The translations under genes were made by a program, and so were the position numbers. The notes under the pieces are model-generated. The model made no database searches and had not been told where the DNA came from. It worked only from the letters and a program-made list of their open reading frames with translations. From Paracoccaceae bacterium (GTDB lineage: Bacteria > Pseudomonadota > Alphaproteobacteria > Rhodobacterales > Rhodobacteraceae), in the NCBI GenBank assembly GCA_023260655.1, contig JALQUU010000003.1, positions 1-64,000 of the forward strand: a stretch of 64,000 nucleotides of DNA. The letters are read 5' to 3'. Positions 1,976 to 33,769 of this stretch are shown one piece after another. Numbering within the stretch: the stretch's first letter is position 1; each line of letters opens with the position of its first letter.

Positions 1976-1981
1976 GCCCGC

Positions 1982-2416
1982 ATGTTCAAAGACCTGCTTT
2001 CCCGTCTTCTGGCGTCGGCGCCTGCGCTGAGCGACCCTGATGCGCGGCTTGCCATGGCTGCGCTCCTGATCCGTTTGGCGCGCACCGACGGCCACTATGC
2101 GCCCGAGGAAATCGACCGGATCGACCGCATTCTGGAAGCGCGCTACGGCCTGGACCATGCGAGTGCTCAAGAATTGCGCCGCCATGGTGAGACGCTCGAA
2201 GAAGAAGCTCCGGACACCGTGCGCTTCACCCGCGCCATCAAGGAAGCCGTTCCCTATGAAGAGCGCTTGTCCGTCATCTCCGCTCTCTGGAGTGTCGCGC
2301 TTGCCGATGGTGTGCGGGATGCCGAAGAGGATGCTTTGATGCGGCTTGCGGCCAATCTTCTCGGGGTTTCCGACATCGACTCGGCGCGGGCGCGTCAAGG
2401 TGTTGCCCGCTCATGA
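1982..2416 (+). CDS. TerB-like (tellurite resistance B fold) protein
   Basis: A 144-residue all-helical cytosolic protein. The acidic motif LIRLARTDGHYAPEEIDRI in the first third and the repeated SVALADGVRDAEEDALMRL in the last third are the two DG-containing halves typical of the TerB/DjlA-N fold, thought to bind metal or act as an adaptor. There is no other ter gene in the window, so a tellurite role is not implied. Its TGA overlaps the ATG of the next gene (ATGA at 2413), indicating translational coupling. Confidence 0.85.
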   Translation: MFKDLLSRLLASAPALSDPDARLAMAALLIRLARTDGHYAPEEIDRIDRILEARYGLDHASAQELRRHGETLEEEAPDTVRFTRAIKEAVPYEERLSVISALWSVALADGVRDAEEDALMRLAANLLGVSDIDSARARQGVARS

Positions 2417-3168: not shown

Positions 3169-3228
3169 CAAGTGACCACAAGTCAATTCGGCGACAAAGC
3201 CCATAGTCCTGTCCGTTTCGACCGTTGC

Positions 3229-4889: not shown

Positions 4890-5774
4890 ATGTTCCAATA
4901 CTGCACCGATCCTTCCACTCTTGACGGGCTCGCTTGGCTGTCGTGCTACCTCACGACTGCAAAGCATGCTGCCTTCTATGTGTCCTTCGGAACGGTGCTG
5001 CTGCTTCTCGCCGTCACCGCCCCCGCCGCTCTGGGCATGGGCTTTCTCGGCGCTTCCGCCGCCCGCTCCCGCATCTTGCCGCTGTCGATCTTCGGCAAAG
5101 GCTATATCGCCATCGTGCGCGGCGTGCCCGACATCGCTTTCTTCCTCTTCTTCGTGATCGCGCTCGATCAGGGCATCGAATATTTGCGCCACATCACGCT
5201 CTGCCCCGACTGGGATCAACCGATCCGCCAAGGCAACGATTTCCTCGTCTGCCCCGCCGCGAAAGCCCCCTTGGGTACCTCGCCGCAATGGGTGCACGAG
5301 GTTTACGGCTTCAGCATTGCCGTCTTCACCTTCGCCCTCGTCTTCGGAGCCTTCGCCGCCAACGTGCTCTACGGTGCCATGCGCGCCGTGCCCCGCGCCC
5401 AGCTTGAAACCGCCGAAGCCTATGGCATGAACACCCGCCAGATCTTCTGGCGCATCCTTGTGCCGCAAATGTGGGTCTATGCGCTGCCGGGCCTCTCGAA
5501 CCTTTGGATGGTGCTGATCAAGGCCACGCCTCTCCTCTTCCTCCTCGGCGTCGAGGATATCGTCTACTGGGCGCGCGAGCTTGGCGGCACCAAGACCCCC
5601 CAGTTCACCGAATACCCGCATGGCGACTGGCGGATGTGGTATTTCCTCTTCCTGCTCGTGTTCTACCTCGCCTTCACCCGCATCTCCGAGATCGTGCTCG
5701 ACCGCCTCATGCAGCGCCTCACCCTTGGCCAAGCCACCATGGGCGGCGAAGCGCAACGAAAGGCCGCCGCATGA
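4890..5774 (+). CDS. Polar amino acid ABC transporter permease 1
   Basis: A 294-residue inner-membrane permease of the HisM/HisQ/ArtQ type. It has several hydrophobic helices, beginning with YVSFGTVLLLLAVTAPAALG. The ATPase-docking EAA loop is ETAEAYGMNTRQIFWRILVP around residues 171-190. It is longer than typical HisQ (~230), with an extra loop between the first helices (IEYLRHITLCPDWDQ onwards) carrying two Cys (CPDW and FLVCPAA). It overlaps the next permease by ATGA, so the two are translationally coupled and presumably form a heterodimer. Confidence 0.93.
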   Translation: MFQYCTDPSTLDGLAWLSCYLTTAKHAAFYVSFGTVLLLLAVTAPAALGMGFLGASAARSRILPLSIFGKGYIAIVRGVPDIAFFLFFVIALDQGIEYLRHITLCPDWDQPIRQGNDFLVCPAAKAPLGTSPQWVHEVYGFSIAVFTFALVFGAFAANVLYGAMRAVPRAQLETAEAYGMNTRQIFWRILVPQMWVYALPGLSNLWMVLIKATPLLFLLGVEDIVYWARELGGTKTPQFTEYPHGDWRMWYFLFLLVFYLAFTRISEIVLDRLMQRLTLGQATMGGEAQRKAAA

Positions 5775-6580
5775 GCTGCTGGGAAACCCTCGCCGATTAC
5801 GGCCTCCGCTCGCTCGGCATCGGCGAACGCCTCTTGCCGCGCACCAATTTCACGCTCTGCCAGCAATTCGTGCTGATCGGCTCCGGCATGATCTGGAACG
5901 TTTATTTCGGCGTGCTGGCCCTCTTCTCAGGCTTCTTTCTGGCAACGGGCCTCGCGCTCTCCAAAGCCGCGAAAAACCCCTTCCTGCGCAAACCCGCCGA
6001 ATGGTTCATCTTCGTCTTCCGCGGCTCGCCGCTCTTCATCCAGTTCTTCTTCGCCTATTTCCTGTTCCTCTCGCTGAAACAGGTCTACCCGATCCTCACG
6101 CCCCTCACCTCGGCCACCCTGGGCGCGCTCGTCGTGCTCTTCCTCAACACCGCCGCCTATTCCGCCGAGATTTTCTACGGCGCCCTGCAATCGGTGCCGA
6201 AGGGCGATATCGAAGCCGCCGACGCCTATGGCTTTTCGGGCTGGCCGCGCTTTCGCCAGATCATCTGGCCCACCATGCTCCGGCTCGCTTGGCCCGCCTA
6301 TACGAACGAAGCGATCTTTCTGTTCCACGCCACAACACTCGTGTTCTTCTCGGGCTTCCCGGCCGCGAAACAGAAGGGCGACGCGCTCTATTACGCGAAC
6401 TATTTCGCCGACAAGACCTTCAACCCCTTCATCCCCTACCCGATCCTCGCGGGCTATTTCATCCTGCTCACGCTTCTCCTGATCGGCCTCTTCGGCCTCA
6501 TCAACAAGCGCCTGAACCGCCACCTGCCCACCGCCCCCAAACGCGGCAAGCGGCCTCTGGTGCCGGGTTTCCTGCGCTAA
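5771..6580 (+). CDS. Polar amino acid ABC transporter permease 2
   Basis: A 269-residue partner permease. The track ORF begins at 5471, but the real start is ATG 5771, which overlaps the stop of permease 1 (ATGA) and begins MSCWETLADYG; the extra upstream part is an out-of-frame shadow of permease 1. It has an N-terminal helix VYFGVLALFSGFFLATGLAL, the EAA loop EAADAYGFSGWPRFRQIIWP, and a C-terminal helix before a basic tail. It closes the transporter operon; the next gene is about 130 nt away and has its own putative control site. Confidence 0.93.
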   Translation: MSCWETLADYGLRSLGIGERLLPRTNFTLCQQFVLIGSGMIWNVYFGVLALFSGFFLATGLALSKAAKNPFLRKPAEWFIFVFRGSPLFIQFFFAYFLFLSLKQVYPILTPLTSATLGALVVLFLNTAAYSAEIFYGALQSVPKGDIEAADAYGFSGWPRFRQIIWPTMLRLAWPAYTNEAIFLFHATTLVFFSGFPAAKQKGDALYYANYFADKTFNPFIPYPILAGYFILLTLLLIGLFGLINKRLNRHLPTAPKRGKRPLVPGFLR

Positions 6581-6687
6581 GGTCAGGCCCTAAGGCTGCC
6601 CGAAAAAGCGGCAACTGGCAGCGAACTCTCCCGAAAATAGCAAAGCTGCGTCTTCCCTCTTGCCACAAGCAGTGCGCCTGTCTAGGA

Positions 6688-6699
6688 TTTGATCAAATT
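6688..6699. promoter_or_regulatory. Palindromic possible operator ATTTGATCAAAT
   Basis: A perfect 12-bp palindrome 13 nt upstream of the ATG of the first glutamine-synthetase-like gene, so close that a bound protein would cover the transcript start or ribosome site. Nine bases are shared with the site before the transporter operon (3229). Confidence 0.35.
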
Positions 6700-6712
6700 C
6701 AACAGGTGAACC

Positions 6713-8059
6713 ATGTCTCCCTCGTCACTAAACTGGCTGCGTAAGAACCCGCAGGTCAGAACCATCCGTGTAGCCGCCGCCGACCTGAACGGTCAGCCCC
6801 GCGGTAAACGGGTTCCTACCCGCTTTGCCGATAGCGTCGTCGCAAACGGAACCCGCTTCCCCGTGTCCTCGCTCAATCTCGACATCTGGGGCGAAGACAT
6901 CGACGACAGCCCCCTCGTCTATGACAACGGCGATGCCGACGGTGTCCTCAAACCCACCGAGCGCGGCTTCATGCCGATGCCTTGGCTCGAAGCCCCCACC
7001 GCCCTCCTGCCGATCTGGATGTTCCGCGAAGATGGCCGCCCCTACGAAGGTGACCCCCGCCACGCACTCCGCGCTGTTGTAGACCGCTACAAGGCGCTTG
7101 GCCTCACCCCCGTCGTGGCGATGGAACTCGAATTCTATCTGATCGACGACTCGGGCAAATCGCTGCAAGTTCCCGTGTCGCCCCGCTCCGGAAAACGACG
7201 CAAAGCCGCCGAGATCCTCTCGATCCGCGCACTGGATGCTTTCGACACCTTCTTCACAGATCTCTACGACGCCTGCGAAGCCATGGATATCCCGGCCGAT
7301 ACGGCGATTTCCGAAGCAGGCCTCGGCCAGTTCGAACTGAACCTCATGCATCAGGAAGACGCTCTCCGCGCCGCCGACGATGCCTGGCTCTTCAAGATGC
7401 TGGTGAAAGGCATGGCCCGACGCCACGGTTTCGCCGCCTCCTTCATGGCCAAACCCTATGAGGATTACGCAGGCTCCGGCCTCCACACGCATTTCTCCGT
7501 GCTCGATTCCGATGGCCGCAACATCTTCGACGACGGCGGCCCCCAAGGCACCGATACGCTCCGCCATGCCGTCGGCGGATGCCTCGCCGCGATGCGCGAC
7601 AGCACGCTCATCTTCGCGCCCCACCTCAACAGCTACGAACGCCTCGCGGGCGGCTCGCATGCGCCCTCGGGCATCTCTTGGGCCTACGAGAACCGCACCT
7701 CCGCGATCCGCATTCCTTCGGGCAGCCACAAGGCGCGCCGGATCGAACACCGCGTCGCGGGCGGCGATGTGAACCCCTATCTCCTGCTCACCGCCATCCT
7801 CGGCGCGGCCCTCTGGGGCATCGAGAACGAGATCGAACCCGCCGCACCCATCACCGGCAACGCCTATGCGCTAGATCTGCCGCGCATGGCCGAAAGCTGG
7901 GGCGAAGCGATCGAGGCTTTCGAACAAAGCAGCATCGTCCCGCAATTCTTCTCGCCCGACATCATCCGCAACTTCCTCTCCACGAAGAAGCAGGAAATGC
8001 ACTACATGGGCGAGCTTGAACCCAACGAGCAGGTCGAAATCTACCTCGACACAGTGTGA
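6713..8059 (+). CDS. Glutamine synthetase-like gamma-glutamyl-amine ligase (PuuA-like), paralogue 1
   Basis: A 448-residue member of the glutamine synthetase superfamily, of the length and style of PuuA/GlnA-like ligases that join glutamate to amines using ATP. Metal- and substrate-site motifs are present: AMELEFYLI, GLGQFELNL, an FMAKPYEDYAGSGLHTHFSV core, and the glutamate loop NSYERLAGGSHAP followed by ENRTSAIRIP. The adenylylation loop typical of GlnA is not evident. With paralogue 2, a class I amidotransferase and a PuuB-like oxidase downstream, a polyamine or related amine is the likely substrate (inference). PuuA sensu stricto cannot be assigned by eye. Confidence 0.88.
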   Translation: MSPSSLNWLRKNPQVRTIRVAAADLNGQPRGKRVPTRFADSVVANGTRFPVSSLNLDIWGEDIDDSPLVYDNGDADGVLKPTERGFMPMPWLEAPTALLPIWMFREDGRPYEGDPRHALRAVVDRYKALGLTPVVAMELEFYLIDDSGKSLQVPVSPRSGKRRKAAEILSIRALDAFDTFFTDLYDACEAMDIPADTAISEAGLGQFELNLMHQEDALRAADDAWLFKMLVKGMARRHGFAASFMAKPYEDYAGSGLHTHFSVLDSDGRNIFDDGGPQGTDTLRHAVGGCLAAMRDSTLIFAPHLNSYERLAGGSHAPSGISWAYENRTSAIRIPSGSHKARRIEHRVAGGDVNPYLLLTAILGAALWGIENEIEPAAPITGNAYALDLPRMAESWGEAIEAFEQSSIVPQFFSPDIIRNFLSTKKQEMHYMGELEPNEQVEIYLDTV

Positions 8060-8124
8060 GCGGCCCCGCTTGCCCGAATGCGGCGAGCGGGATACCATGC
8101 TCCTATCCAAGAACTTGGTGACTC

Positions 8125-8802
8125 ATGAAAATCGGCATTTTGCAAACTGGCCACGTCGCGGATGAAATCCAAGCGACGCTCGGCGATTACTCGGACATGT
8201 TCGCCCGTCTTCTCGACGGGCAAAACTTTGAATTCATTGTCTATAACGTCGTAGACATGGATTTCCCCACAGGCCCCGAAGCCTGCGACGGTTGGCTCAT
8301 CACCGGCTCCCGCCACGGTGCCTATGAAGACCACCCCTTCATCCCCCCGCTAGAAAACCTGATCCGCGCCATCCGCGACGCAGGCCGCCCCCTGATCGGC
8401 GTCTGCTTCGGCCACCAGATCATCGCGCAGGCCTTGGGCGGCAAGGTCGAGAAGTTCAGCGGCGGCTGGTCCGTCGGGCGTCAGGAATATGATTTCGACG
8501 GCGAGAAAGTCGCGCTCAACGCGTGGCATCAGGATCAGGTAGTCGAACTCCCGCCCGGTGCCGAGGTTGTCGCGTCATCGGCCTTCTGCGCCAACGCCGC
8601 CCTCGTCTACGGCCCGAAAATCTTCACCGTTCAGGCCCACCCCGAATTCACCTCGGCCATGATCGAAGGCCTGATCGAACACCGTTCGGCGAAAGTGCCC
8701 GACACCCTCCGCGATAGGGCCTCCAGCAATCTGAAAACCCCCACCGACAACCAGCGCCTCGCGAAACGCATGGCGGCTGTCCTCAAGGGAGAAACAGCAT
8801 GA
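8125..8802 (+). CDS. Class I glutamine amidotransferase-like hydrolase (possible gamma-glutamyl hydrolase)
   Basis: A 225-residue stand-alone class I amidotransferase domain. The nucleophile Cys94 is in GVCFGHQ and the His-Glu dyad in VQAHPEF. Between two glutamine-synthetase-like ligases it could remove the gamma-glutamyl group from an oxidised product, as PuuD does, but it is shorter than PuuD (about 254) and looks closer to GMP-synthase-like stand-alone domains. Function is therefore inferred from context. Its TGA overlaps the ATG of the second ligase (8799), so the two are co-translated. Confidence 0.85.
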   Translation: MKIGILQTGHVADEIQATLGDYSDMFARLLDGQNFEFIVYNVVDMDFPTGPEACDGWLITGSRHGAYEDHPFIPPLENLIRAIRDAGRPLIGVCFGHQIIAQALGGKVEKFSGGWSVGRQEYDFDGEKVALNAWHQDQVVELPPGAEVVASSAFCANAALVYGPKIFTVQAHPEFTSAMIEGLIEHRSAKVPDTLRDRASSNLKTPTDNQRLAKRMAAVLKGETA

Positions 8803-10157
8803 CCGACTGGACCGAGAAACTCCCCGAGGCCGCGCGCACCTATCTGGAAAACCGCCGCCTCGACGAGGTGGAATGCATCATCTCCGACCTGCCCGGCATC
8901 GCCCGTGGCAAGGCCATGCCCGCGAATAAATTCGCCAAGCAGGAATATTTCCACCTGCCGGATTCGATCTTCTACCAGACCATCACCGGCGACTGGTCAG
9001 AAGCCGCAGGCGAAGAAGGCTTCATCGAACGGGACATGATCCTGAAGCCCGACTTCTCCACCGCCTCTGCCGCCCCATGGACCGCCGACTGGACGCTGCA
9101 AGTCATCCACGACGCCTATGACCGCAAAGGCCAGCCGATTTCCTACAGCCCCCGCAACGTGCTGAAGCGCGTGGTCGATCTCTACCACAAGCAGGGTTGG
9201 AAACCCGTGGTCGCGCCGGAGATGGAATTCTACCTCGTCGCCCGCAACCTCGACCCGGCCAGGGATATCGAACCGATGATGGGCCGCTCCGGCCGCCCTG
9301 CCGCCGCGCGCCAAGCCTATTCCATGTCCGCCGTCGATGAATTCGGCCCGGTGATCGACGACATCTATGACTTCGCCGAAGCCCAAGGCCTCGAAATCGA
9401 CGGCATCACGCAGGAAGGCGGCGCAGGCCAGCTGGAGATCAACCTCCGCCACGGCAGCCCCGTCAAACTCGCCGACGAAGTGTTCTACTTCAAACGCCTG
9501 ATCCGCGAAGCCGCGCTCCGCCACAACTGCTTCGCCACCTTCATGGCCAAACCCATCGCCAACGAACCGGGCTCGGCCATGCATATCCACCATTCGGTGA
9601 TCGATATGGAAACCGGGCAGAACCTCTTCTCCGGCCCGCAGGGCGGTGAAACGGACGCGTTTTTCCACTTTATCGGCGGCTTGCAAACCCACCTGCCCAA
9701 AGCCATCGCGGTGCTGGCACCCTACGTGAACAGCTACCGCCGCTACGTCCGCGACCACGCCGCCCCCATCAACCTCGCATGGGGCCGCGACAACCGCACG
9801 ACAGGCATCCGCGTGCCGCTTTCCGGCCCGGTCTCGCGCCGCGTGGAAAACCGTTTGGCAGGGATGGATTGCAACCCCTACCTCGGCATCGCCGTGTCGC
9901 TGGCCTGCGGCTACCTCGGCCTGATGGAAGAGAAACGCGCCGGGCCTTCGTTCAAGGGCGATGCATATGAAGGCGAAGAGGATATCCCCCGCGTCATGGG
10001 TGACGCGCTCGACCTCTTCGATGATGCCAAGGATCTGCACCAAGTTCTCGGCCCCGATTTCGCCCGTGTCTACACGATCGTGAAACGCGCCGAATACGAG
10101 GAGTTCCTGCAAGTCATCAGCCCTTGGGAACGCGAGCACTTGCTCCTGAACGTCTGA
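8799..10157 (+). CDS. Glutamine synthetase-like gamma-glutamyl-amine ligase, paralogue 2
   Basis: A 452-residue glutamine-synthetase-superfamily ligase, clearly divergent from paralogue 1 but with the same sites: APEMEFYLV, GAGQLEINLRHG, FMAKPIANEPGSAMHIHHSV, NSYRRYVRDHAAP and DNRTTGIRVP. The N-terminal EVECIISDLPGIARGKAMP is the beta-grasp part used by PuuA-like enzymes. It overlaps the amidotransferase gene by ATGA. Two divergent ligases in one operon suggest two amine substrates or sequential glutamylation; the sequence does not decide between them. Confidence 0.88.
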   Translation: MTDWTEKLPEAARTYLENRRLDEVECIISDLPGIARGKAMPANKFAKQEYFHLPDSIFYQTITGDWSEAAGEEGFIERDMILKPDFSTASAAPWTADWTLQVIHDAYDRKGQPISYSPRNVLKRVVDLYHKQGWKPVVAPEMEFYLVARNLDPARDIEPMMGRSGRPAAARQAYSMSAVDEFGPVIDDIYDFAEAQGLEIDGITQEGGAGQLEINLRHGSPVKLADEVFYFKRLIREAALRHNCFATFMAKPIANEPGSAMHIHHSVIDMETGQNLFSGPQGGETDAFFHFIGGLQTHLPKAIAVLAPYVNSYRRYVRDHAAPINLAWGRDNRTTGIRVPLSGPVSRRVENRLAGMDCNPYLGIAVSLACGYLGLMEEKRAGPSFKGDAYEGEEDIPRVMGDALDLFDDAKDLHQVLGPDFARVYTIVKRAEYEEFLQVISPWEREHLLLNV

Positions 10158-21730: not shown

Positions 21731-22461
21731 GCCAGCACCTCTTCGACCGAGCATTCAATCAGCGCCAAGCACTCGGGGTTCGAGAACCGATGGTCCGCCC
21801 CCTTCACCAGTGTCAGCCGCATATCCGGCCCCTCGGCATGCGCCAGCAACCGATGCGCCACGCTCTGATCCACATCCGCATCCGCCGTCCCTTGCAGGAA
21901 CCGCACAGGGAAGGGCAACGCCAAAGGCGCGCGCAGCACCAGATGCTCCCGCCCATCCTCGATGAGCTTGCGCGTGATCACATAAGGCCCCTCGGAATAT
22001 TCCGACGGCAACTCCACCCGCCCCCGCTGCAAAAGCTGATCCCGCTCTGCCGCCGAGAAACCCGCCCACATACTGTCTTCCGTGAAATCCGGAGCCGCCG
22101 CGATGGTCACAAGCCCCGCCAACCGCTCCGGCATGGCACGCACCACCAGTAGCGAAATCCACCCCCCCATTGACGAGCCAACCAGCACCTGCGGCCCCTC
22201 GGTCAGATGCGTGATCGCCGCCTTCGCGTCATTCGCCCAATCGCCGATGCAGCCATCGAGGAAGTCCTCCGAAGACGCCCCGTGCCCCGAATAGTCGAAC
22301 CGCAAGAAGGCCCGCCCCGTCCGCTTGGCCCAGTCCTCCAAAGCCTGCGCCTTGGTGCCCGTCATGTCCGAACGGAACCCGCCCAAGAACACCACGCCCG
22401 GCCCTTTGCCAGCCGTCCGCTCATAGGCAATCCGCCGCCCGTTCGCTTCGAGAAATTCCAT
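21718..22461 (-). CDS. Alpha/beta hydrolase
   Basis: A 247-residue soluble hydrolase. Motifs are VVFLGGFRSDMTG, RFDYSGHGAS, nucleophile elbow VGSSMGGW, the acid loop LQGTADADV and the His in KGADHRFS. The track ORF begins at 22875, but the first 138 codons are low-complexity antisense of the neighbouring gene; ATG 22461 starts MEFLEANGRRIAYER and overlaps the creatininase-like gene stop (ATGA). The arrangement suggests a three-gene unit: creatininase-like hydrolase, this hydrolase, membrane hydrolase. It resembles carboxylesterases of the YqiA/BD-FAE style; substrate unknown. Confidence 0.85.
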   Translation of the reverse strand: MEFLEANGRRIAYERTAGKGPGVVFLGGFRSDMTGTKAQALEDWAKRTGRAFLRFDYSGHGASSEDFLDGCIGDWANDAKAAITHLTEGPQVLVGSSMGGWISLLVVRAMPERLAGLVTIAAAPDFTEDSMWAGFSAAERDQLLQRGRVELPSEYSEGPYVITRKLIEDGREHLVLRAPLALPFPVRFLQGTADADVDQSVAHRLLAHAEGPDMRLTLVKGADHRFSNPECLALIECSVEEVLACAG

Positions 22462-23276
22462 CAGCCCCTCCGAAAATCCACGCCACCCGTGCCCGCACCG
22501 CGCAAATCGGCAGGCGCCGCCCAGGTCTCGGGGTTCACAATCAACGCGGCCAAGGCCTCCGCCCCGGCCTCCAGCATCGCCTCGCCCTTCGCCGCCGTCG
22601 AACGCGCGGGATTGCCCGCCACGCCGTTCGCGGTAATCGCTGCAAAAGGCCGCCAGCGGTAGGATGCCTTCCCTGCCGCCAAGAACCGCCCGCCATCCAT
22701 GCCCTGCGCAAGCCCCGCCAGATCGGACGTGTCCACCAAAGCAGGCTCGCACACCATCATCATCGAGGTCTCCGCCTCGCAGGCATGCATCACGCCCTTC
22801 TGGTCCTCCAGATGCCGCGAAAGATCCTCGCCCGCCTCGGTCACATAGGTCGTGCCCACCAAAGTGGCCCCGCAATCCACCGCCAATTCATCGCAAATCT
22901 GCTGCATCGCAATCATATTGCCGCCGTGGCTGTTCGAGATGAGGATATCCCTGAACCCTTGCCGCACCAGCGCCGCCACCAGATCCCCCACCAGCGCACG
23001 GAAGGTCGCATGGCTCACCGTCAAGGTGCCGCCAAACGGCATGTGATGCTCGGAAAGCCCCGACCACACTACAGGCGTCACCACCACCGGGCGCTTCGGA
23101 TAGGCCTTTCGCGCCGCGCGCACGGCAATCTCATGGCCAAGCCGCGTGTCCGTCATCGTAGGCAAATGCGGCCCGTGCTGCTCGATCGAGGCGATAGGCA
23201 GGATCACCACCGCATTCGCCTCCGCCAAAGCGCGCACCTCCTGCGCCTTGAGCCGCTGCCACTCTACATCCGCCAT
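22461..23276 (-). CDS. Creatininase family amidohydrolase
   Basis: A 271-residue member of the creatininase/MftE family of metal-dependent amidohydrolases. Metal ligands are seen in PIASIEQHGPHLP (Glu, His), the TDTRLG Asp region, NSHGGNM (His) and the Glu of HACEAETS. ATG 23276 (MADVEWQRL) is the family start; the track extends it upstream to 23396 across the thrS leader. Family members hydrolyse cyclic amides or act in cofactor maturation, so the substrate is unclear. It leads the co-translated hydrolase unit and is divergent from thrS. Confidence 0.88.
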   Translation of the reverse strand: MADVEWQRLKAQEVRALAEANAVVILPIASIEQHGPHLPTMTDTRLGHEIAVRAARKAYPKRPVVVTPVVWSGLSEHHMPFGGTLTVSHATFRALVGDLVAALVRQGFRDILISNSHGGNMIAMQQICDELAVDCGATLVGTTYVTEAGEDLSRHLEDQKGVMHACEAETSMMMVCEPALVDTSDLAGLAQGMDGGRFLAAGKASYRWRPFAAITANGVAGNPARSTAAKGEAMLEAGAEALAALIVNPETWAAPADLRGAGTGGVDFRRG

Positions 23277-23437
23277 GATCCGAACCCCCTGTTGCTTCCA
23301 AAACATCGTGGCCCCAGTTCGGCGCGGGCGCAAGCCGCTCCCCGTTGACTTTGCCCGCCACACGGCGCAAACCGCGCCCACACATATTACCCGCAACCGG
23401 GCGTTCCGTGGGCGCCAAACCGACGAAGAGAGCCGCT

Positions 23438-25384
23438 ATGGCCCAGATTTCCCTCACCTTCCCCGATGGCAATGTGCGCGAGTATCCCGCAGGCATCACC
23501 CCTGCCGAGGTCGCAACCTCCATCGCTCCGTCGCTGGCCAAAGCCGCGATTTCCGCGCAAGTGAACGGCGCACATTGGGATCTCCAGTGGCCGATCAATG
23601 AAAGCGCCGCCCTCGCGATCAACACGATGAAAGACGATGGCCCCGCCCTCGAACTCATCCGTCACGACCTCGCCCATATCATGGCCCGCGCCGTGCAGGA
23701 AATCTGGCCCGACGTGAAAGTCACCATCGGCCCCGTGCGCGATCAGGGCTGGTTCTACGATTTCGACCGCGCCGAGCCCTTCACGCCCGAAGATCTTGGC
23801 CAGATCGAAGCCAAGATGAAGCAGATCATCGCCGCCCGCGAACCGGTGAAAACCGAAGTCTGGGACCGTGCGCGCGCCATCGCCCATTACGAGGCCGCAG
23901 GCGAGCCCTTCAAGGTAGAGCTGATCAACCGCATTCCCGAAGGCGAAGACCTGCGGATGTACTGGCACGGCAACTGGCAGGATCTCTGCCGCGGCCCGCA
24001 CCTCCAGCACACCGGCCAAGTCCCCGCTGACGGCTTCAAGCTGATGAACGTGGCCGGTGCCTACTGGCTGGGCGATTCCACGCGCCCCATGCTCCAGCGC
24101 ATCTATGGCGTCGCGTTCAAGAACCGCGATGATCTCAAAGCCCACCTCACCATGCTCGAAGAGGCCGCCAAGCGCGACCACCGTAAGCTTGGCCGCGAGA
24201 TGGATCTCTTCCACATGCAGGAAGAAGCCCCCGGCCAGATCTTCTGGCACCCGAACGGCTGGACCATCTACACCGAGCTGCAAGACTACATGCGCCGCCA
24301 GCAAAAGCGCGGCGGCTATGTCGAGGTGAACACGCCCCAAGTGGTGAACCGCGTTCTCTGGGAGAAGTCCGGCCACTGGGCCAACTACCAAGAGAACATG
24401 TTCATCGTCGAGGTCGAGGAAGAGCACGCCAAGCAGAAGACCGTGAACGCGCTGAAGCCGATGAACTGCCCCTGCCACGTGCAGATCTTCAACGTCGGCC
24501 TGAAGTCCTATCGCGAACTGCCGCTCCGCATGGCCGAATTCGGCTCCTGCAACCGCTACGAACCCTCGGGCGCGCTTCACGGCATCATGCGCGTGCGCGG
24601 CTTCACGCAGGACGACGCGCATATCTTCTGCCGCGAAGACCAGATCGAAAGCGAAACCAAGCGCTTCATCGAATTCCTGTCGCGCATCTACCGCGATCTG
24701 GGCTTCGACAAGTTCCGCATCAAATTCTCCACCCGCCCCGAAAAGCGCGCGGGCACCGACGAGATCTGGGACAAGGCCGAAGCGGCTCTCGCCAATGCCA
24801 CCAAAGCGGCCGGCTATGATTTCGAACTCAGCCCCGGCGAAGGCGCCTTCTACGGCCCGAAACTCGAGTTCGTCCTCACCGACGCCATCGGTCGTGACTG
24901 GCAGTGCGGCACACACCAAGTGGACTTCGTGCTCCCCGAGCGTCTCGATGCAGTCTACATCGGCGAAGACGGAGCCAAGCACCGCCCCGTCATGCTCCAC
25001 CGCGCCACCTTGGGCAGCTTCGAGCGTTTCATCGGCATCCTGATCGAAAGCCACGCGGGCAAACTGCCCTTCTGGCTCGCACCGCGCCAAGTCGTCGTCG
25101 CTTCCATCGTCTCGGATGCGGATGACTACTGCGCCGAAGTGGCCGAGATGCTGATCAACGCAGGCGTCCGCGCCGAGGTCGATCTGCGTAACGAGAAGAT
25201 CAACTACAAAGTCCGCGAACATTCGGTCGGCAAGGTGCCTGTCATCCTCGCCATCGGTGCCCGCGAAGTGGCCGAGCGCACGGTTACGCTGCGCCGCCTC
25301 GGTGAAAACCAGACCCGCACCGTCGCCCTCGACGGGGTCGTGGCGGCACTGGCCACCGAAGCCACCCCGCCCGACCTGGCCTGA
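23438..25384 (+). CDS. thrS: Threonyl-tRNA synthetase
   Basis: A 648-residue class II synthetase charging tRNA-Thr. Domain order: TGS domain (1-62, [17 protein letters not shown]), editing domain with the HDLAH motif and CRGPHLQHT, then the catalytic core with [10 protein letters not shown] and [12 protein letters not shown], and the C-terminal anticodon-binding domain from about 545. ATG 23438 is the family start rather than the upstream TTG used by the track. No leader operator hairpin was recognised. Confidence 0.97.
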
Positions 25385-25431
25385 TCAAGAAACTCGCGCC
25401 CTGGCAACACACCGGGGCGCGCAGCCTGCCC

Positions 25432-27243
25432 TCAGAACCGAACGTTGAAACCCACCGTTGCGGCATGATTGACGCGGCCGGAGCTGAGTTGTACGGTGTA
25501 GGAACTGCCGAACTTGGCATTTTTCGACAAATCCACACTCAGCCCTGCATCCACCACCAAGGCATCCCGCGCCACAGGCACACCCGCCACCGTGAAAGCC
25601 GTGCCCCCGGCAAAAGCATGGCTCGCCCCCGGTGCATCACCAAACGCATGCCGCCAGCCGATCCCGCCCGAAAGCGTGGCCTTGTTCCGCCCCAGATCAA
25701 GCGGCATTTCACCCCGCACACCCAGCGTGGTGAAGGTGGTCTTGACCGATTGCTTGCCACTCGTCAGCGCCGCAGCACCCCCCGCCTCGGAATAACCGTC
25801 TGTCATGAGGTTCACATAGGTTAGGTTGGCGTAAGGCTCGATCCGCCCCTTCGCGGTCTCGATCGTATACGCCGCCTCGGTAAAGGCTTGGAAGCTGCGC
25901 GCCTTATAGGAGGCCGACAGGCTGTCCGCGAACCCCGTGAAGGCCACATTGCGAGAGGTATCAAGCGCGTGCCACCCGTAAGAAAGCCCGCCCTTCAGCG
26001 AAAACGCCCCCCAAGTCCTGCCCGCATAGGCCCCGAGCGTATAGCTCTCCACCTTGCCCGAAGACATCCGGTCCGAAACGTCGAGGCCACTGCGGGAAAA
26101 CCCGCCCATCACCCCGAACGTAACGTTCTCGTTCACCTCCGCATCGGCCCCGATCATCAACCCGCCAATCGTCCGCCCCAGCGTCGCGGCATTGCCGTCA
26201 CCGCCCCACTGGTTCCAACTGCCGATCCCCTGCACCCAAAGCCCGGCCTCATCGGGCGCTCCACGCAACCGCCCCAGCGCCGCCTCACGCGCGAAACGGC
26301 TGTCTTCGATCAAAGCCGTCTGCGCCGAACCATGGATTTCCCCCGATAGCTGATCCAGCGCCACCGGAGCTTCCGTGTTGGAGAGGTTCAGAACCGCCGT
26401 ATGCAGCGCCCCCGCCCCGATCGACATAACGCCCCCACAGGTGGCGTCCTGATTGAACGTCAGGCTCAGCGCCGTGCACGGCGCCGCCGGAGCCACTAGT
26501 GCCGAAGTGATATGCACATGATCGGCATCGTAGCTGTCGGAGAAGGTCAGGAAGGCATAGTCATCCGTCACACTGTCGAAGGAGCCCGTCACCGTCGTAT
26601 CGGCGCGCACCACCGTATAGATCGTGCCCGGCGCATAGGTCGTGCCATCATCCGTGCCGTTTTCCGGCGTCACATGGATGGTGCCACCGTCGATCTGCAC
26701 AAATCGCAAGGAGTCGATGAAGTCGTTATTCACGCCAAAGGCATTGCCCCCGTCATTCAACTCGACTTCCAAAACCGAGCCCGCCGCGAGGGTCAGGTTC
26801 CCCGTCAGGAGCGAACTGATCGAACTGGCCCCGCCAACCGGATCACCCGCCGCCAGCGTCGCACCGGGATTGACGGTCACATTCCCGCTGATCACGCCAG
26901 TCCCACCCAAGGTGCTCCCGCCCAGCGCAAAGACAGTCGGATTGGTCAAAACCCCCGTCACAATCGCGCGCCCGTTATTCACTTCGAAATCGCCCGTGCC
27001 CGAGTTTGACCCGTCAAACACCAGCGTGCCCAGATCGGTGAATTCGATATCGCCCGTGCCGATGATATCGTTGCGGATTTCGGTCACAAAACCCGCCCCC
27101 GCCGCCGTGCCGTCGCCAACGCGCAAAGTGATATCATTCGCACCTATATTGATGTCGTCCCCGGTCAGCACATAGCCATCGGCGGCAAACTGCATCCCTT
27201 CATCCACATTGATTGCGCCCCCCGCCGCATCAACGCTCACCAA
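25432..27243 (-). pseudogene. Autotransporter with outer-membrane beta-barrel, 5'-truncated
   Basis: A 603-residue C-terminal part of a type Va autotransporter. The N-terminal ~270 residues are passenger repeats (TGDIEFTDLGTLVFDGSNSG, STLGGTGVISGNVTVNPGATL). The barrel begins near GLWVQGIGSWNQWGG (about 350) and ends VGFNVRF with the C-terminal Phe used for BAM assembly. There is no signal peptide and no plausible start: the frame runs SFAAPGGLVSVDAAGG and stops just upstream. At the same place an opposite-strand HvfC-type gene is also cut, so this gene lost its 5' half in a rearrangement or the contig is misjoined. A truncated product could not be exported. Confidence 0.8.
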
Positions 27244-27254
27244 ACCGCCCGGCG

Positions 27255-27667
27255 CGGCGAAGCTCGACCAAGCCCTCCGCGAAAGCTACCACGCCGCTGA
27301 TAACACACGGTTTTCATTGGAAAATATCGAAGGCCAACCGCTCGAAACCCTCACCTTCCGCTTCGCCCCCTCGGCCCAAATCATCGCCTTCGACCACCCC
27401 GTTTTCAGCATCTGGACCCACCTGCAAACCGGCGCTCCAATCCGCGGAAACGCTCCCGAAACCGTCCTCATAGCCCGCGCCGATTACTCGCCCGCGCCCT
27501 ATCTCCTTCCCCCCGCCGAGGCCGCCTTCATCACCGCCCTCTCCCAAGGCCACCCCCTTGGAGTGGCACACGAATCCACGCTCGCACATCACCCCGACTT
27601 CGACCCAACCCCGGCACTTTCCCTGCTCTTCTCCTCGGGCGCCCTCACTTCAGGGAACCCCACATGA
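27255..27667 (+). pseudogene. HvfC/BufC-type (DUF2063) protein, 5'-truncated
   Basis: The C-terminal half of a DUF2063/HvfC-like protein. Family-like sequence begins at about KLDQALRESYHAAD and continues with SAQIIAFDHPVFSIW, ETVLIARADYSPAPYLL and AAFITALSQGHPLG. The N-terminal DNA-binding-like domain is missing and the track start (27209) lies inside the truncated autotransporter. It overlaps the DoxX gene by ATGA. In intact loci HvfC follows DUF2282 and DUF692 genes, in copper-responsive bufferin (RiPP) operons; both are absent here. Confidence 0.75.
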
Positions 27668-28197
27668 TCACCCTGCGAAACCGCCTTCTCGCCCCGCTCG
27701 CCAATCTCGAGCCACTCCTTCCTCTCCTCGCCCGCCTCATCTTCGCCGCCACCCTAGCCGGCTACTTCTGGGCCTCCGCCCTCACCAAACTTGGCCCCTC
27801 CCCGTGGCAACCCTCCACCGGTGCCTACGCCCAGATCCTGCCGCGCCTTTTCGAGCGCGTAGGCTATGACGCCTCGCAACTCTCACCCCCCCAACATCTT
27901 CTCGTGATTTCAGGCACTTGGGCGGAGTTCCTCCTCCCCGCGCTCCTCCTCATCGGGCTCTACACCCGCGCCGCAGCGCTCGGGATGATCGGCTTCATCT
28001 TCGTGCAAACCCTGACCGATCTCTTCGGCCACGGCGCGCTTTCCCAACCCGAAACCCTCGGCGCATGGTTCGACCGTGCGCCAGACAGCCTGATCCTCGA
28101 TCAACGCGCCTTCTGGTTACTTTTGCTTAGTATTTTGGTGATCAAAGGGGCTGGTGCGGCGTCGGTGGATGCGTGGCTTACGCGTCGTCTTCCATAG
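27664..28197 (+). CDS. DoxX family membrane protein
   Basis: A 177-residue DoxX-type integral membrane protein with four hydrophobic segments: LARLIFAATLAGYFWASAL, LLVISGTWAEFLLPALLLIGL, ALGMIGFIFVQTLTDLFG and AFWLLLLSILVIKGAG. It starts within the stop of the truncated HvfC-type gene (ATGA), the standard HvfABC-DoxX order, so it is the surviving last gene of that operon. DoxX proteins in these operons are thought to help redox or metal homeostasis. Its end overlaps the convergent gene below by 20 nt. Confidence 0.9.
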   Translation: MITLRNRLLAPLANLEPLLPLLARLIFAATLAGYFWASALTKLGPSPWQPSTGAYAQILPRLFERVGYDASQLSPPQHLLVISGTWAEFLLPALLLIGLYTRAAALGMIGFIFVQTLTDLFGHGALSQPETLGAWFDRAPDSLILDQRAFWLLLLSILVIKGAGAASVDAWLTRRLP

Positions 28198-28546
28198 CCC
28201 GCATATGGGGCACCAAAGCGGCCAGAATGGCGCCCGCTCCGATGAACACCAAGGGAGCCATGGTAAAGGCCGTGTATCCGTACCCGAGTAACAGCAAAAA
28301 AAACGCCGCCGCCATCAGCGCAGCACCGAAATAAGCCCCCCGAAGGCTCAACACACCGCCGAGGATGGCAAGAACCGGTGCTAAATAATGCGCCTCCCAC
28401 CGGAACGGAGACAGCACCGCTTCCCCTTCTTGCCCCGCTTGGTCGGAAAAGAGCCCGATATTGCCACTGTTCTGCGCCAGAAAGCCGCCAACCCAGAATG
28501 CCGCAACACCCCCAACGATCCCTAACATCAAGGCAACATTACGCAT
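28178..28546 (-). CDS. Hypothetical four-helix membrane protein
   Basis: 122 residues, not assigned to a family. Four hydrophobic stretches: MLGIVGGVAAFWVGGFLA, YLAPVLAILGGVLSL, YFGAALMAAAFFLLLLGYG and MAPLVFIGAGAILAAL. The short loop between helices 1 and 2 is polar (NSGNIGLFSDQAGQEGEA). It overlaps the DoxX gene end on the opposite strand and stands alone. The coding potential rests on the helix pattern and the clean start at 28546; function unknown. Confidence 0.65.
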   Translation of the reverse strand: MRNVALMLGIVGGVAAFWVGGFLAQNSGNIGLFSDQAGQEGEAVLSPFRWEAHYLAPVLAILGGVLSLRGAYFGAALMAAAFFLLLLGYGYTAFTMAPLVFIGAGAILAALVPHMRAMEDDA

Positions 28547-28602
28547 TTCGGCTCCCCAAATCTTAACGAACCCTAGGCAAGTTTAGAGTTGGAAGAAAGC
28601 CT

Positions 28603-28923
28603 TCACACTTCGTTAACTTGTGTCTGTGTCGTCGCAGTCCAACCGAGGAACATCTTGCCATCCTCGCGCAGGAAAAGCGGCCGTTTCATCAGCGCAGGAT
28701 GGGCTTTCAACAGCTCCAAAACAGGCCGCGCCTGCTCTTCCGCGCTCAATCCACGCCACGTCGTCGAGCGCGTATTGAGCAGATCGTCCGTAAATTCAGC
28801 AAATGCCCGCTCCAGAATCGCATCGGTCAGCGGTTCTTCACGAACATCTAAAAATTTCGCTTCTGGAAGAGATTTCAATGCCTTACGGCACGTATCACAA
28901 TTTTTTAGGCCAAAAATCTGCAT
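28603..28923 (-). CDS. ArsC/Spx-family thioredoxin-fold protein
   Basis: A 106-residue protein of the ArsC/YffB/Spx fold. The opening MQIFGLKNCDTCRKALKSLP carries the CxxC motif; LNTRSTTWRGLSAEE and MKRPLFLREDGKMFLGW are typical of the YffB-like branch (RPLF segment). ATG 28923 is chosen over the longer track ORF since GGAG lies 7 nt upstream. YffB-like proteins are thought to be glutathione-dependent thiol reductases; an arsenate role is not implied. Confidence 0.85.
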   Translation of the reverse strand: MQIFGLKNCDTCRKALKSLPEAKFLDVREEPLTDAILERAFAEFTDDLLNTRSTTWRGLSAEEQARPVLELLKAHPALMKRPLFLREDGKMFLGWTATTQTQVNEV

Positions 28924-29114
28924 GGTCGGCTCCTTTTTTTGGCGCAACGCGAAATTCAAACCCGCTTGTCGCTTGATTTTTGTAAAAGCCGTGTAATCCT
29001 CTTTGGCGTGACTTGGAACTAAGGTCTTCGCCTCCCGTAAGCGCCGACCCCAACTATCCGGTGACATGGGCCCCGACATCCCGGGGAGATAGAAGACTGA
29101 AAGGAGGCACGGTT

Positions 29115-29321
29115 ATGCCTACCGGCACCGTGAAATGGTTCAATACCACTAAAGGCTACGGCTTCATTGCCCCCGATGGCGGCGGCAAAGACGTTTTCGT
29201 TCATATCTCGGCCGTCGAACGTTCCGGTCTCACCGGGTTGGCGGACAATCAGAAAGTCAGCTTCGAGATGCGCGAAGGCCGCGATGGCCGCCAGATGGCT
29301 TCGGATTTGAAGATCCTCTAA
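29115..29321 (+). CDS. Cold-shock domain protein
   Basis: A 68-residue single CSD protein that binds single-stranded RNA/DNA. RNP1 is KGYGFIAP and RNP2 DVFVHISAVE. ATG 29115 has AAGGAGG 9 nt upstream; the track ORF from 29013 includes the leader. The leader (about 29000-29114) is long enough to hold cold-responsive structure, but none was worked out. A hairpin follows the stop. Confidence 0.95.
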   Translation: MPTGTVKWFNTTKGYGFIAPDGGGKDVFVHISAVERSGLTGLADNQKVSFEMREGRDGRQMASDLKIL

Positions 29322-29326
29322 CGAAA

Positions 29327-29352
29327 AAGCCGGATGCTTGAAGCACCCGGCC
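29327..29352 (+). terminator. Hairpin after the cold-shock gene
   Basis: GCCGG-a-TGCTT-ga-AGCA-c-CCGGC stem directly after the stop. No T-run on the plus strand, but A-rich sequence (ACGAAAAAG) precedes it, so it would act better for the opposite-strand gene. Confidence 0.5.
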
Positions 29353-29390
29353 TACGCTCTCTGGGCGGTACCCCTTCGGCGCCGCCTTTC

Positions 29391-29684
29391 TTATTCGTAG
29401 TAGCAGCCCTTCTCGCCCACCGGGCAAACCATCTTGCGCTGCGGCTTGCGCGCCACATACTTCACCTTGCGCGGTGCAGACGTCGCCTTCACTTGCTGGT
29501 AGCTCATCGTATGGTTCGGCGTACCGCAGCAGATCACGCCATCAATGGAAATCGGCTGAAGGCCGGAAAGGCAGTAGTTTGCCGACGCATGGTAGGGATA
29601 GATTTTCGCATCCATCGCACTCGCTGGCAGCGCCGCCAACACAGCCAGCCCGAAGCCCGAGATCATGGCAGCTTTGATACCCAT
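29391..29684 (-). CDS. Small secreted Cys-containing protein
   Basis: 97 residues, no family recognised. ATG 29684 is preferred (GGGAG 8 nt upstream) over the track start 29717. Residues 1-23 are a signal peptide (AAMISGFGLAVLAALPASAM, cleavage near ASA-MDA). The mature part has Cys residues in NYCLSG, VICCGTP, VCPVG and KGCYYE, likely disulfides in the periplasm, and a basic centre (APRKVKYVARKPQRK). Function unknown. Confidence 0.7.
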   Translation of the reverse strand: MGIKAAMISGFGLAVLAALPASAMDAKIYPYHASANYCLSGLQPISIDGVICCGTPNHTMSYQQVKATSAPRKVKYVARKPQRKMVCPVGEKGCYYE

Positions 29685-29786
29685 CGAATTGTCTCCCATT
29701 GCAAACGCCGCAAACACAGTGATTGCACTGAGTTAACCGCGAACTCGGAAGGCCGTCCAGCGAAAATTAGTCTTTTGGCTATGAGA

Positions 29787-30197
29787 TTATACCATTCGGA
29801 TTGACAGACGCAACAAAGCGACCCCCGCCCAAGCCGAAACACCAGTCAGCACGGTGCCCCAAGCCAGATCCAGCGCCACCATTTTCCAAGACCAAAGCTT
29901 TAGCGTTGCCATATTGGTGAACTCGTAGGTGCCGTAAGCCAGCGCCCCCACGACCGCCCCTTTTACCAGCGCATCTCCTGGCGCTCCGGCCACAAACGCA
30001 GGCCAGGACACGAGCCATACCAGCCCTGCGATATAGGCAACGTAAAACAGCGCCGCCGCCCCGTAGAGCGGCTGAGGCCGCATGATCTCGCCAATGTAGG
30101 TTTCATACAAAGGCGCCAGAACGCGCGTCAGCATGAGCGCGTCAAGCACAAGAAACACCGCAACGGTGATAACGAAAAGCCAGAAAGCCACGGACAT
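29787..30197 (-). CDS. DUF2177 family membrane protein
   Basis: A 136-residue integral membrane protein with four hydrophobic helices. Family signatures include LDALMLTRVLAPLYETYIGEIM early and ALAYGTYEFTNMATLKLWSW in the third quarter. Function of the family is unknown. It follows thyX on the same strand after a 44-nt gap containing an inverted repeat. Confidence 0.88.
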   Translation of the reverse strand: MSVAFWLFVITVAVFLVLDALMLTRVLAPLYETYIGEIMRPQPLYGAAALFYVAYIAGLVWLVSWPAFVAGAPGDALVKGAVVGALAYGTYEFTNMATLKLWSWKMVALDLAWGTVLTGVSAWAGVALLRLSIRMV

Positions 30198-30209
30198 TCC
30201 CCCTCAAAC

Positions 30210-30239
30210 TAAAGCGGATACGTCCGTTGGCGCGCTTTA
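30210..30239. repeat. TAAAGCG...CGCTTTA inverted repeat
   Basis: Seven-bp arms TAAAGCG / CGCTTTA around a 16-nt loop between the thyX stop and DUF2177. The arms resemble the outer ends of the 104-bp element (CGCTTTA), but no other part of that element is present. May be a weak terminator. Confidence 0.4.
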
Positions 30240-30241
30240 GA

Positions 30242-31153
30242 TCACTCTTTGTCGATAAGCGCCCGGAACTCCCGCCATTCGCCCTTCGACATGCCAGAAT
30301 TCTCTTCGGTCACCGCTTCACCGCGGATCATGCGGCGGATGCAGTCCAGCCCGGTTTTCGAAACAGCCGCACCGCCCATGCGGTAATCCTCGAAGGCCGC
30401 ATAGGTCTGGGGCACCCAATCCGCCACGATCTTGCACATCGCTTCCGCATAAACGCGGATTTCGTACTGTGCATGGGCATCCGCCCGAAGTCGCAGGAAA
30501 TGCAAGAGGTTATGCAGATCGGTCTTCCAGTACCACTGCGTGTAGATATTCGCAGGCAGGTTCATCCGCGCCAATTCGCGCGCCAAACCTTGCTGACCAT
30601 CCTGGCTGATCATTGCCTCGTAATGGTCATAGGCCCGCGTGCAATCCTCGCGCAGCCAGCGCAGCACACGCTCGGCCTCCTCGCCCGTCAGTGCCTCGCC
30701 CCGGCCCTGGTTGTTGATCACCGATTGTGCCGCCAGCGCATCCTGCGACGGGATGTAGAACTCGCGATCCAGAATCGAATAGCGCGCCGAATATTCGTTC
30801 ACATTGGCGGTCCGGTGGCGGATCCACTGGCGCGCCACGAACACGGGCAGCTTCACATGTAGCTTGATTTCGCACATCTCGAAGGGCGTCGAATGCCAAT
30901 GCCGCATCAGATAACGGATCAGGCCCGCGTCATTCTGAACGCTCTTGGTGCCCTTGCCGTAAGAAACTCGCGCCGCTTGGCAGATCGCCGCGTCGTCGCC
31001 CATGTAGTCGATCACCCGCACGAAGCCGTGGTCGAGAACCGGATGCGCCGTGTAAAGGTGCTTCTCCATGCCTTCGGAAACCACGCGCAACGTCGAACGT
31101 GTCTCCTGACGTTCTGCTTCGATTTCTGCCAGCTGCTCCGGGGTAATCGGCAT
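30242..31153 (-). CDS. thyX: Flavin-dependent thymidylate synthase
   Basis: A 303-residue ThyX that methylates dUMP to dTMP using FADH2 and methylene-tetrahydrofolate. The signature [15 protein letters not shown] (RHR-x7-S) binds FAD and dUMP. ATG 31153 ([14 protein letters not shown]) has GAGGAG 6 nt upstream; the track start 31171 is an upstream GTG. No thyA is seen in the window. Confidence 0.96.
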
Positions 31154-31340
31154 GAACGTCTCCTCTTTCACGACTCGCTTGGGCCTACATATTGCCCAGC
31201 CAGCAGCTTAATGCCACTGCCCCGTGTGACGCAGGACGCACCTTGCCACTAAAACCGCCGAGAACGCCTATCCTTATTGGCATTTTACCTATCCCTTTAG
31301 AAATTGTCGCCAAACAGGAAATCCCGCAGAGGGCAGGGCA

Positions 31341-32411
31341 GTGCTTCAGAAAAAACTCGGCAGTTTGGCCGTTATCGCGTTCCTTTCCGCCTGCGGTGGC
31401 TCCAACCCCTTCATCGACAATTCGGACACGACGGACACCGGAACCGGCACTGGCACGACCGATGGCACGCCGATCACCTCGGATCGCACTGTGCCGCCCG
31501 GAACCGCAAGCCCCACCCCCGCAGCTGGCATCTTCCGCCGCGAGCCCACCTCGGACGAGGACAACAGGTTCGGTGATGGGGCGGCCCAGAGCATCGTCTA
31601 CGATTCCGGCACCGACAGCTTCACCATCACCGGCCTCGCCTTTGACGGCAACAACACCTACACCCGTAGCACCGCCGTCAGCAGCCTTGGCCCCTACGCG
31701 GTCTACGAGGCAGCTTCGCAATATCCGGATGCGGTTACCAGCAGCCCGATCAACCAGATGACCCACCGCGCCGTCTATGGCGTCTCGACTGGCGGCGATG
31801 TCGAATTCGCGATTGTCCGTACCGGAGCCTATATCGCCTACGGTTTCGGCGGCTTCATCTACCAGCGCAATGGCGGTGTTACTCTGCCCACGGCAGGCCA
31901 AGCCAGCTATTCAGGCCCCTATGCAGGCCTGCGCGGTTTCGTCGGCAAGTGCGGCATCGAGTATTCGACTGCCGACATGGCCATCGACATCGATTTCGAC
32001 GCCTTCACTGCAAAATCCGGTGCAGAACAAGCCGCCGTGCGCGGTCGCCTGACCAACCGCGAAATCTACGATGTCAACGGCAATAATATCACCCGCGACA
32101 TCCTCGACGCTCTCGAAGCCGAATACGCAGGGATGACCTACAACAGCCTGCCTACTGTCGTCTTCGAAGTCGGCCCCAGCGTGATGGACGCGAACGGCGA
32201 AATCGTCGGCAATGTCGGCAACTCGCTGAACACCCCGAATGGCGCGATCACCTTCGAGGAAGGCAAGTATTACGCCCTCATCTCCGGGGATGCCACGCAG
32301 GGTAATGCCAGCAACATCGTCGGCGTGCTCGTCTTCGAAACTACGCAAGACCAGCGTTTCGAAAACGTCACCGTACACGAAACCGGCGGCTTCATCCTCG
32401 GGCGCAACTAA
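31341..32411 (+). CDS. Surface lipoprotein with TbpB-like beta-barrel, probable Slam substrate
   Basis: A 356-residue lipoprotein. GTG start, signal peptide LGSLAVIAFLSAC with lipobox LSAC-G (lipidated Cys18), then a Thr/Gly/Asp-rich linker (DTTDTGTGTGTTDGTP). The folded part is all beta; ITFEEGKYYALISGD and ASNIVGVLVFETT near the C-terminus resemble the last strands of transferrin-binding-protein-like barrels. Three nt separate it from the Slam-type gene, the standard pairing in which Slam moves the lipoprotein to the cell surface. What it binds is unknown; the Slam partner is frameshifted here. Confidence 0.8.
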   Translation: MLQKKLGSLAVIAFLSACGGSNPFIDNSDTTDTGTGTGTTDGTPITSDRTVPPGTASPTPAAGIFRREPTSDEDNRFGDGAAQSIVYDSGTDSFTITGLAFDGNNTYTRSTAVSSLGPYAVYEAASQYPDAVTSSPINQMTHRAVYGVSTGGDVEFAIVRTGAYIAYGFGGFIYQRNGGVTLPTAGQASYSGPYAGLRGFVGKCGIEYSTADMAIDIDFDAFTAKSGAEQAAVRGRLTNREIYDVNGNNITRDILDALEAEYAGMTYNSLPTVVFEVGPSVMDANGEIVGNVGNSLNTPNGAITFEEGKYYALISGDATQGNASNIVGVLVFETTQDQRFENVTVHETGGFILGRN

Positions 32412-32414: not shown

Positions 32415-33769
32415 ATGCGGCGCACCTTGCAGTTCGCGGCGCTCTGCGTCGCCCTCTGCATCTCGGGCACGGGGCAGGCGCGGGCCGAAACACTCAACGC
32501 CGCCGATTTCCACACCAAGGCCGTCGAGGCGCTGGCTGCGGGCGATGCCCATACAGCGCTCGCCATGGCCGAGGCCCTCCTCGCCCGCGATCCGCAGGAT
32601 TTCGACGCCGATCTCCTCCGCGCCCGAGCCGCCCGCGAATTGGGTCAGACCGCGGATGCCCTCAGCGCCTCGGAAACCGCATGGGGGCTTGCAGCTACCG
32701 ATTTAGAGCGCCATGCCGCCGCCCTCGTGCGCGCTCAGGTGCTATCTTCTGTTGACCGCCGCACCGCCGCGCAGCTCTGGCTCCGCCGTGCCGTGCAATA
32801 TGCGCCCGACCCCGCCTCCCGCGCCCGCGCCATCCGCGATTTCCGCTATGTTCGCGCCCGCAATCCCGTCTCCGTCGATCTTCGCTTCGGCCTCACGCCG
32901 CGCTCGAATATCAACAACGGCTCGGTGCATTCCTCGGCGCGGCTCTTCGATCTGCCCTTCGAATTCCAGCTCTCCGGCACCGCGCAAGCCCTCTCCGGCC
33001 TTGAAACCTCTGCCGGGGCAAGCCTCCGCTACCGCATTTCCGAGGCCCCCACCCACGCCACCGATCTGCGCGTCTCGCTCGACAGCCGCAGCTACACCCT
33101 TTCCAAAGAGGCCCGCGCACTCGCCCCAGCCGCACGCGGATCGGATTACGGCCAGATCAACCTGAGCGCCGGCCTCCTGCACCGCTGGTCCGATCCGACA
33201 GGCCGCCGCGAATGGCTCGTCGGCGCCGATCTTGGCCGCCTCTGGTATGGCGGCGCCCCCTACGCCGATGTCGCGCGCCTTACGGGCGGGGTGAACCTCG
33301 CGCTCCCCAACAGCCAGCGCCTCTCCATCGCGCTCACCGAGGAACGCAACCGCGGCCCGCTTGCTCCCTCCTCCGATGTTTCCCGCGTCGCTCTCGGCTG
33401 GTCCGCCCCCCTGCCCTCCGGCCCCATGCTTTCCGTCTCGGCCACCCTGACCGACAGCGCCTCCGCCACCTCCAGCGCCGACTACCGCGACCTCTCTCTC
33501 GGGCTCGATATCGCGCCACGCCGCCAGTTCTTCGGTGCGGAAGCGACTTTCTCACTCGACCTGCGCGGCAGCGACTACCCCGCCAACCCCTTCGCCGCAG
33601 GCCCCCGCCATGACCGCGAAGTGGCGGCCTCTCTCTGGCCTTGCCGAAAGCCGAATATCTCGGCTTCAAACCCGTAGTCACGCTCTCGGCCCGCAAGAAC
33701 CGCTCGAACGTCGCGATCTACGAAACCCGCGATATCGGCCGCTCGCTCGGGTTCTGTTCCGCCTTTTGA
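32415..33769 (+). pseudogene. Slam-type surface lipoprotein assembly modifier, frameshifted near the C-terminus
   Basis: Outer-membrane protein with signal peptide (LCVALCISGTGQARA), TPR-like N-terminal domain (about 30-145) and a DUF560/Slam barrel beginning near VSVDLRFGLTPRSNINNGS. The track ORF ends at 33677 with a stray tail WPCRKPNISASNP. In the other frame the end reads KAEYLGFKPVVTLSARKN ... NVAIYETRDI ... LGFCSAF, a good barrel end with terminal Phe, stopping at 33769. The switch lies at a (CT)4 tract (33629-33636); removing one CT restores the frame. So the last strands, with the BAM signal, are lost in this reading. Phase variation, mutation or sequencing error are all possible. 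Confidence 0.8.

Follow-up and report, generated by a model that had tools for sequence, protein, structure and literature searches.

A truncated autotransporter gene abuts the remnant of a bufferin cluster in a Paracoccaceae genome

Two broken genes beside thrS

The window analysed here comprises bases 1–64000 of an 84,353-bp contig (C199), from an assembly of 2.67 Mb in 265 contigs with 77.5% completeness and 4.35% contamination, and is therefore probably a metagenome-assembled genome. The ThyX encoded in the window shares about 80% identity with Pseudorhodobacter and 77% with Paracoccus, which makes membership of the Rhodobacteraceae very probable. Downstream of the threonyl-tRNA synthetase gene thrS, the locus contains the 3′ part of an autotransporter gene on the minus strand, the C-terminal half of a BufC/HvfC gene on the plus strand, and a complete doxX gene, followed by two minus-strand genes (Table 1). 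The ends of thrS and of the autotransporter fragment converge, and a stem-loop between them is a possible transcription terminator, although it has no T run.

Table 1. Coordinates of the features at the locus, given as positions in the window
Feature	Position	Strand	Evidence
thrS (threonyl-tRNA synthetase), left syntenic flank	23438..25384	+	Pfam domains; protein identity 92% to G003, 89% to G002
Stem-loop	25393..25424	.	RNA fold −22.5 kcal/mol, z −3.2
Autotransporter 3′ fragment (C-terminal passenger part and β-domain; 5′ part with signal peptide gone)	25432..27261	-	
Autotransporter β-domain PF03797, intact	25498..26241	-	Pfam E 9.7e-66
Breakpoint	27257..27261	.	GCGAA, explicable from either parent; flush junction
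C-terminal (RRE-type) half of BufC/HvfC, DUF2063 half gone, stop-free inside	27257..27667	+	Sequence identity; no DUF2063 match
DoxX (HvfX-like), complete	27664..28197	+	PF07681 E 2e-7, over cut-off; NF050144 E 3e-7, below cut-off
Small membrane protein, right syntenic flank	28178..28546	-	Position and strand shared with G003 and G002
ArsC/Spx-family protein, right syntenic flank	28603..28923	-	

The autotransporter fragment shares with classical type V autotransporters a complete 12-strand β-domain (the PF03797 match covers profile positions 1–254 of 255), a C-terminal F and a passenger segment of the form F-x4-G-x-V-x-VD...GMQFAxDGY. It differs from whole members of this class in the absence of the signal peptide and of the 5′ part of the passenger, its relatives extending up to 900 residues further upstream (L054). 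No hydrophobic leader of the Sec type was found when the open frame was read, and the leaderless protein should therefore not be exported, as judged from its sequence. The model for the autotransporter serine peptidase EprS (NF051851) aligns at profile positions 456–988 only, and its score of 278 bits falls short of the cut-off of 1700. The gene is absent from all three congeners, and matches occur in 14 of 397 genomes of the family, a count that includes the window's own genome, the other 13 being 23–47% identical. The best matches in GTDB are found in Phyllobacterium phragmitis (57%), a Notoacmeibacter MAG (54%) and Pseudovibrio (48%). A plasmid source was considered and rejected, all matches to plasmid records falling below 60%. 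The GC content at third codon positions is 0.74 in the autotransporter fragment, 0.73 in doxX and 0.82 in thrS. The autotransporter likely arrived horizontally.

On the plus strand, what remains of bufC corresponds to the last 136 codons of a gene whose G003 homologue encodes 264 residues, with DUF2063 (PF09836) at residues 22–112; the PF09836 profile finds no match in the remnant, which is 51% identical to the G003 protein and 43% to that of G002 (over 133–135 residues). BufC occurs in 282 of the 397 family genomes, and the roughly 150 matches listed are near full length. Relaxed selection on the remnant was considered, and no clear signal emerged: dN/dS is about 0.35 against G003, close to the value of 0.32 between the intact congeners. 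Elsewhere in the family, one BufC homologue (L136; G209:C11:2372-3100) contains a single internal TAG stop, a possible case of independent decay of the same cluster.

The two homologies meet almost exactly. TTG at 27243 is the first start in the open frame of the autotransporter fragment; the frame itself reaches back to 27285 and opens in antisense BufC sequence (LSRRAWSSFAAPGG...). Homology to autotransporters ends at a conserved F codon (27261–27259), 18 bp past this TTG; the autotransporters of Phyllobacterium, Pseudovibrio and a Pseudomonadales MAG align starting at this codon, and copies on Sinorhizobium plasmids align from residue 1 of a query that starts at the same F. The residues LSRRAWSS that precede it in the frame are antisense BufC and have no convincing match among the autotransporter relatives. 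On the opposite strand, homology to BufC/HvfC begins at 27257, with an A codon (27257–27259), where the motif YLPDVARLELALRRSYHAAD, common to about 40 relatives, is PGAAKLDQALRESYHAAD in the window. The homologies thus abut with no filler and with an overlap of at most about five bases (GCGAA), which could be due to chance. The sequence bears out the junction, which is placed within about five bases, at 27257–27261. The initial annotation had described a minus-strand autotransporter without signal peptide, with its frame ending at about 27243, and a half-length HvfC/BufC gene starting within 20 bp of it, both truncated at a single point. Its coordinates, its gene names and the 20-bp spacing proved correct, the real boundary lying slightly to the right of 27243.

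The ancestral locus and its missing genes

Bufferins are Sec-exported peptides that chelate copper and are modified by an MNIO enzyme, BufB, which acts together with a DUF2063-RRE partner, BufC (PMC12452194). The Buf1 type of cluster is composed of BufA (DUF2282), BufB (MNIO/DUF692), BufC (DUF2063-RRE) and DoxX (PMC12452194). Such a cluster is found intact in two genomes of the same genus, G003 (contig C150) and G002 (contig C1), in the order thrS(+), bufA/DUF2282(+), bufB/DUF692(+), bufC(+), doxX(+), small membrane protein(−) and ArsC/Spx-like(−), with thrS directly before bufA and nothing else within the block from thrS to doxX. In G003 the interval encodes BufA (PF10048, E 2.6e-23), BufB (PF05114, E 1e-98; 360 bits on the NF050167 BufB model, cut-off 310) and a full BufC (PF09836).

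The window follows this arrangement on both sides of the junction. Positions 22153–25377 align with 1–3227 of the G003 contig and positions 27248–31221 with 5072–9125, in identical orientation, and G002 shows the same colinear pattern for thrS and the downstream genes; the window differs from both congeners only between the thrS stop and the break in bufC. In common with a Buf1-type cluster, the locus thus keeps the position, the gene order and the downstream DoxX (over the PF07681 cut-off) of the two congeners, as well as the C-terminal half of BufC. Unlike such a cluster, it no longer encodes the precursor, the MNIO enzyme or the DUF2063 domain, and carries an antisense autotransporter fragment instead. 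The window is nearer to G003 than to G002 in thrS, both by protein identity and by synonymous divergence (dS 0.78 for window–G003, 0.97 for window–G002 and 1.15 for G003–G002), and hence the intact order is ancestral and that of the window derived.

The colinear flanks bear directly on two explanations of the junction. One is an inversion or translocation within the genome that brought two distant loci together, as would fit two gene halves lying on opposite strands. It is extremely improbable: both flanks match the thrS–buf–doxX locus in order and orientation, over several kilobases to the left and to the right, so that an inversion is not needed; no congener carries the autotransporter elsewhere; and the missing halves are found nowhere else in the assembled genome, the query for the autotransporter 5′ half being a weak one. 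The initial annotation had proposed that an inversion or deletion had fused two loci; of these the deletion fits the preferred reading given below, whereas the inversion and the fusion of two loci are not supported, the flanks being colinear with G003 and G002.

The other explanation is a contig that misjoins autotransporter sequence to the buf locus while the real genome keeps an intact bufABC, an artefact that the initial annotation had offered as giving the same picture. The fragmentation and contamination of the assembly speak for it, as does the contig of the sister species G001, which likewise stops nearby, beginning inside doxX at window position 27895 (L168, G001:C458), 640 bp to the right of the junction. 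Both sides of the insert, however, derive from one ancestral locus, whose order and orientation they preserve, and two false joins in concert would be needed to produce a chimera. The boundary is sharp, a repeat search at the junction found no long repeat able to mislead an assembler or to mediate joining, and no orphan contig with the missing bufA or bufB exists in the assembly. A misjoin is accordingly unlikely, and the event is, with good confidence, real.

The missing genes were also sought in the rest of the assembly. BufA (DUF2282, PF10048) is absent from the locus and from the assembled genome, while the control genome, Caulobacter, was positive. The BufB sequence of G003 (PF05114) finds a homologue with 80% identity in G002 and nothing in the window's genome (G000), and no other MNIO gene was found elsewhere in the 77.5%-complete assembly. 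The peptide and its modifying enzyme are thus missing both at the locus and from the assembly, in agreement with the loss of the two that had been proposed at the outset. A 900-residue N-terminal query from Pseudovibrio, a weak test as it comes from another genus and covers a fast-diverging region, matched no autotransporter 5′ part in the genome or its congeners. The genome-wide search suggested by the initial annotation therefore recovered neither this half nor a DUF2282–DUF692 pair. Since 22.5% of the genome is unassembled, these absences are only suggestive.

Insertion, deletion or replacement

In insertion and deletion scars, as well as in the products of homology-facilitated illegitimate recombination, unrelated genes meet flush or with a few bases at the joint, while the flanks stay colinear. 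The junction described here has both features, and differs in that no homologous anchor or donor was found for it.

We consider a local and recent replacement in two steps the probable origin of the locus. A whole autotransporter gene would first have entered between thrS and bufA, pointing left, away from bufA. A single illegitimate deletion, extending from inside the autotransporter passenger to about codon 129 of bufC, would then have taken away the signal peptide and 5′ passenger of the autotransporter together with the promoter of the buf operon, BufA, BufB and the DUF2063 half of BufC. The result would be two headless genes facing apart, with doxX severed from its original promoter, which has probably been lost. 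In this history one deletion accounts for both truncations.

Some observations count against it. The interval between the stop of thrS and the break in bufC (~25384–27257) measures 1872 bp in the window, against 1846 bp in G003 and 1786 bp in G002. This near-equality of the gained and replaced segments may be a coincidence, but it is also a possible hint of a one-step replacement, in which incoming DNA carrying the autotransporter 3′ part alone was joined beside thrS and inside bufC, so that one event, illegitimate or homology-facilitated, exchanged about 1.8 kb and the autotransporter was never whole at the locus. Such a replacement would make the similar lengths less of a coincidence, and it agrees with the failure of the weak Pseudovibrio query to find a 5′ part in the genome or its congeners and with the fact that the intermediate expected from the two-step history (thrS – whole autotransporter – bufABC) was found in no genome. 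Against it, two novel joints would be needed together, whereas an insertion and a deletion are ordinary steps, and the left joint is a tidy one, lying where two genes converge, as though an entire gene had formerly occupied the place. A one-step replacement is thus rather unlikely. A stronger version, in which the illegitimate uptake of foreign DNA beside thrS was a swap reflecting selection against the bufferin cluster and not neutral decay, is decidedly improbable. The incompleteness of the assembly (77.5%, 265 contigs, MAG-like) and the start of the sister contig inside doxX also weigh against the insertion and subsequent deletion that we prefer.

Two arrangements in other genomes were examined, and both were set aside. 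One, in Ensifer adhaerens (L084, L131), resembled the expected intermediate: an autotransporter is located a few kilobases from bufABC, with sigma-factor and NrsF-like genes between them. The intervening regulator genes and the different type of passenger, which is endonuclease/phosphatase-like, point to chance adjacency. In Pollutimonas (L100) an autotransporter lies beside thrS, in a different order and orientation.

Age and consequences of the break

Both broken frames, of 609 and 136 codons, are free of stops. Under simulated neutral decay, the probability that they would remain so drops below 2% by 0.1 substitutions per site with substitutions alone; if indels are added at 10% of the substitution frequency, it is 0.25% at 0.02. 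The event is therefore probably recent. Neighbouring genes differ between the window and the sister species G001 by a dS of 0.18–0.64, and the break is probably younger than the split between the two, unless some frame is under selection. DoxX is intact and has been conserved relative to G001 (dN/dS 0.08 over the last 97 codons), a value that reflects mostly the time before the break. In the G001 assembly, which is 95% complete, thrS and everything to the left of it are missing, and the start of its contig within doxX may indicate that the region is hard to assemble or variable between strains.

With BufA, BufB and the DUF2063 half of BufC lost, this bufferin should not be made, as far as the gene content allows a prediction. 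The locus looks like an ordinary, well-preserved scar of gene loss, in which both broken genes are still readable. With the ancestral order intact in close relatives, it offers a clean case of the recent loss of a bufferin cluster, and shows one route by which such clusters are lost. BufC is not found in about 29% of the family genomes sampled, so that loss or absence of the cluster is common. For annotation, the locus is a caution that calls of “HvfC” and “autotransporter” may be dead ends, as they are here, and that a lone DoxX can be the relic of an operon.

A tRNA search of the 64-kb window found none. Further to the right, a plus-strand gene at 32415–33677, which encodes TPR repeats and an outer-membrane barrel and adjoins a lipoprotein gene (31341–32411), resembles the surface lipoprotein assembly modulators. 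It is frameshifted near its 3′ end, at about 33.6 kb, through either a real mutation or an assembly error, and the corresponding frame in G001 is apparently intact.
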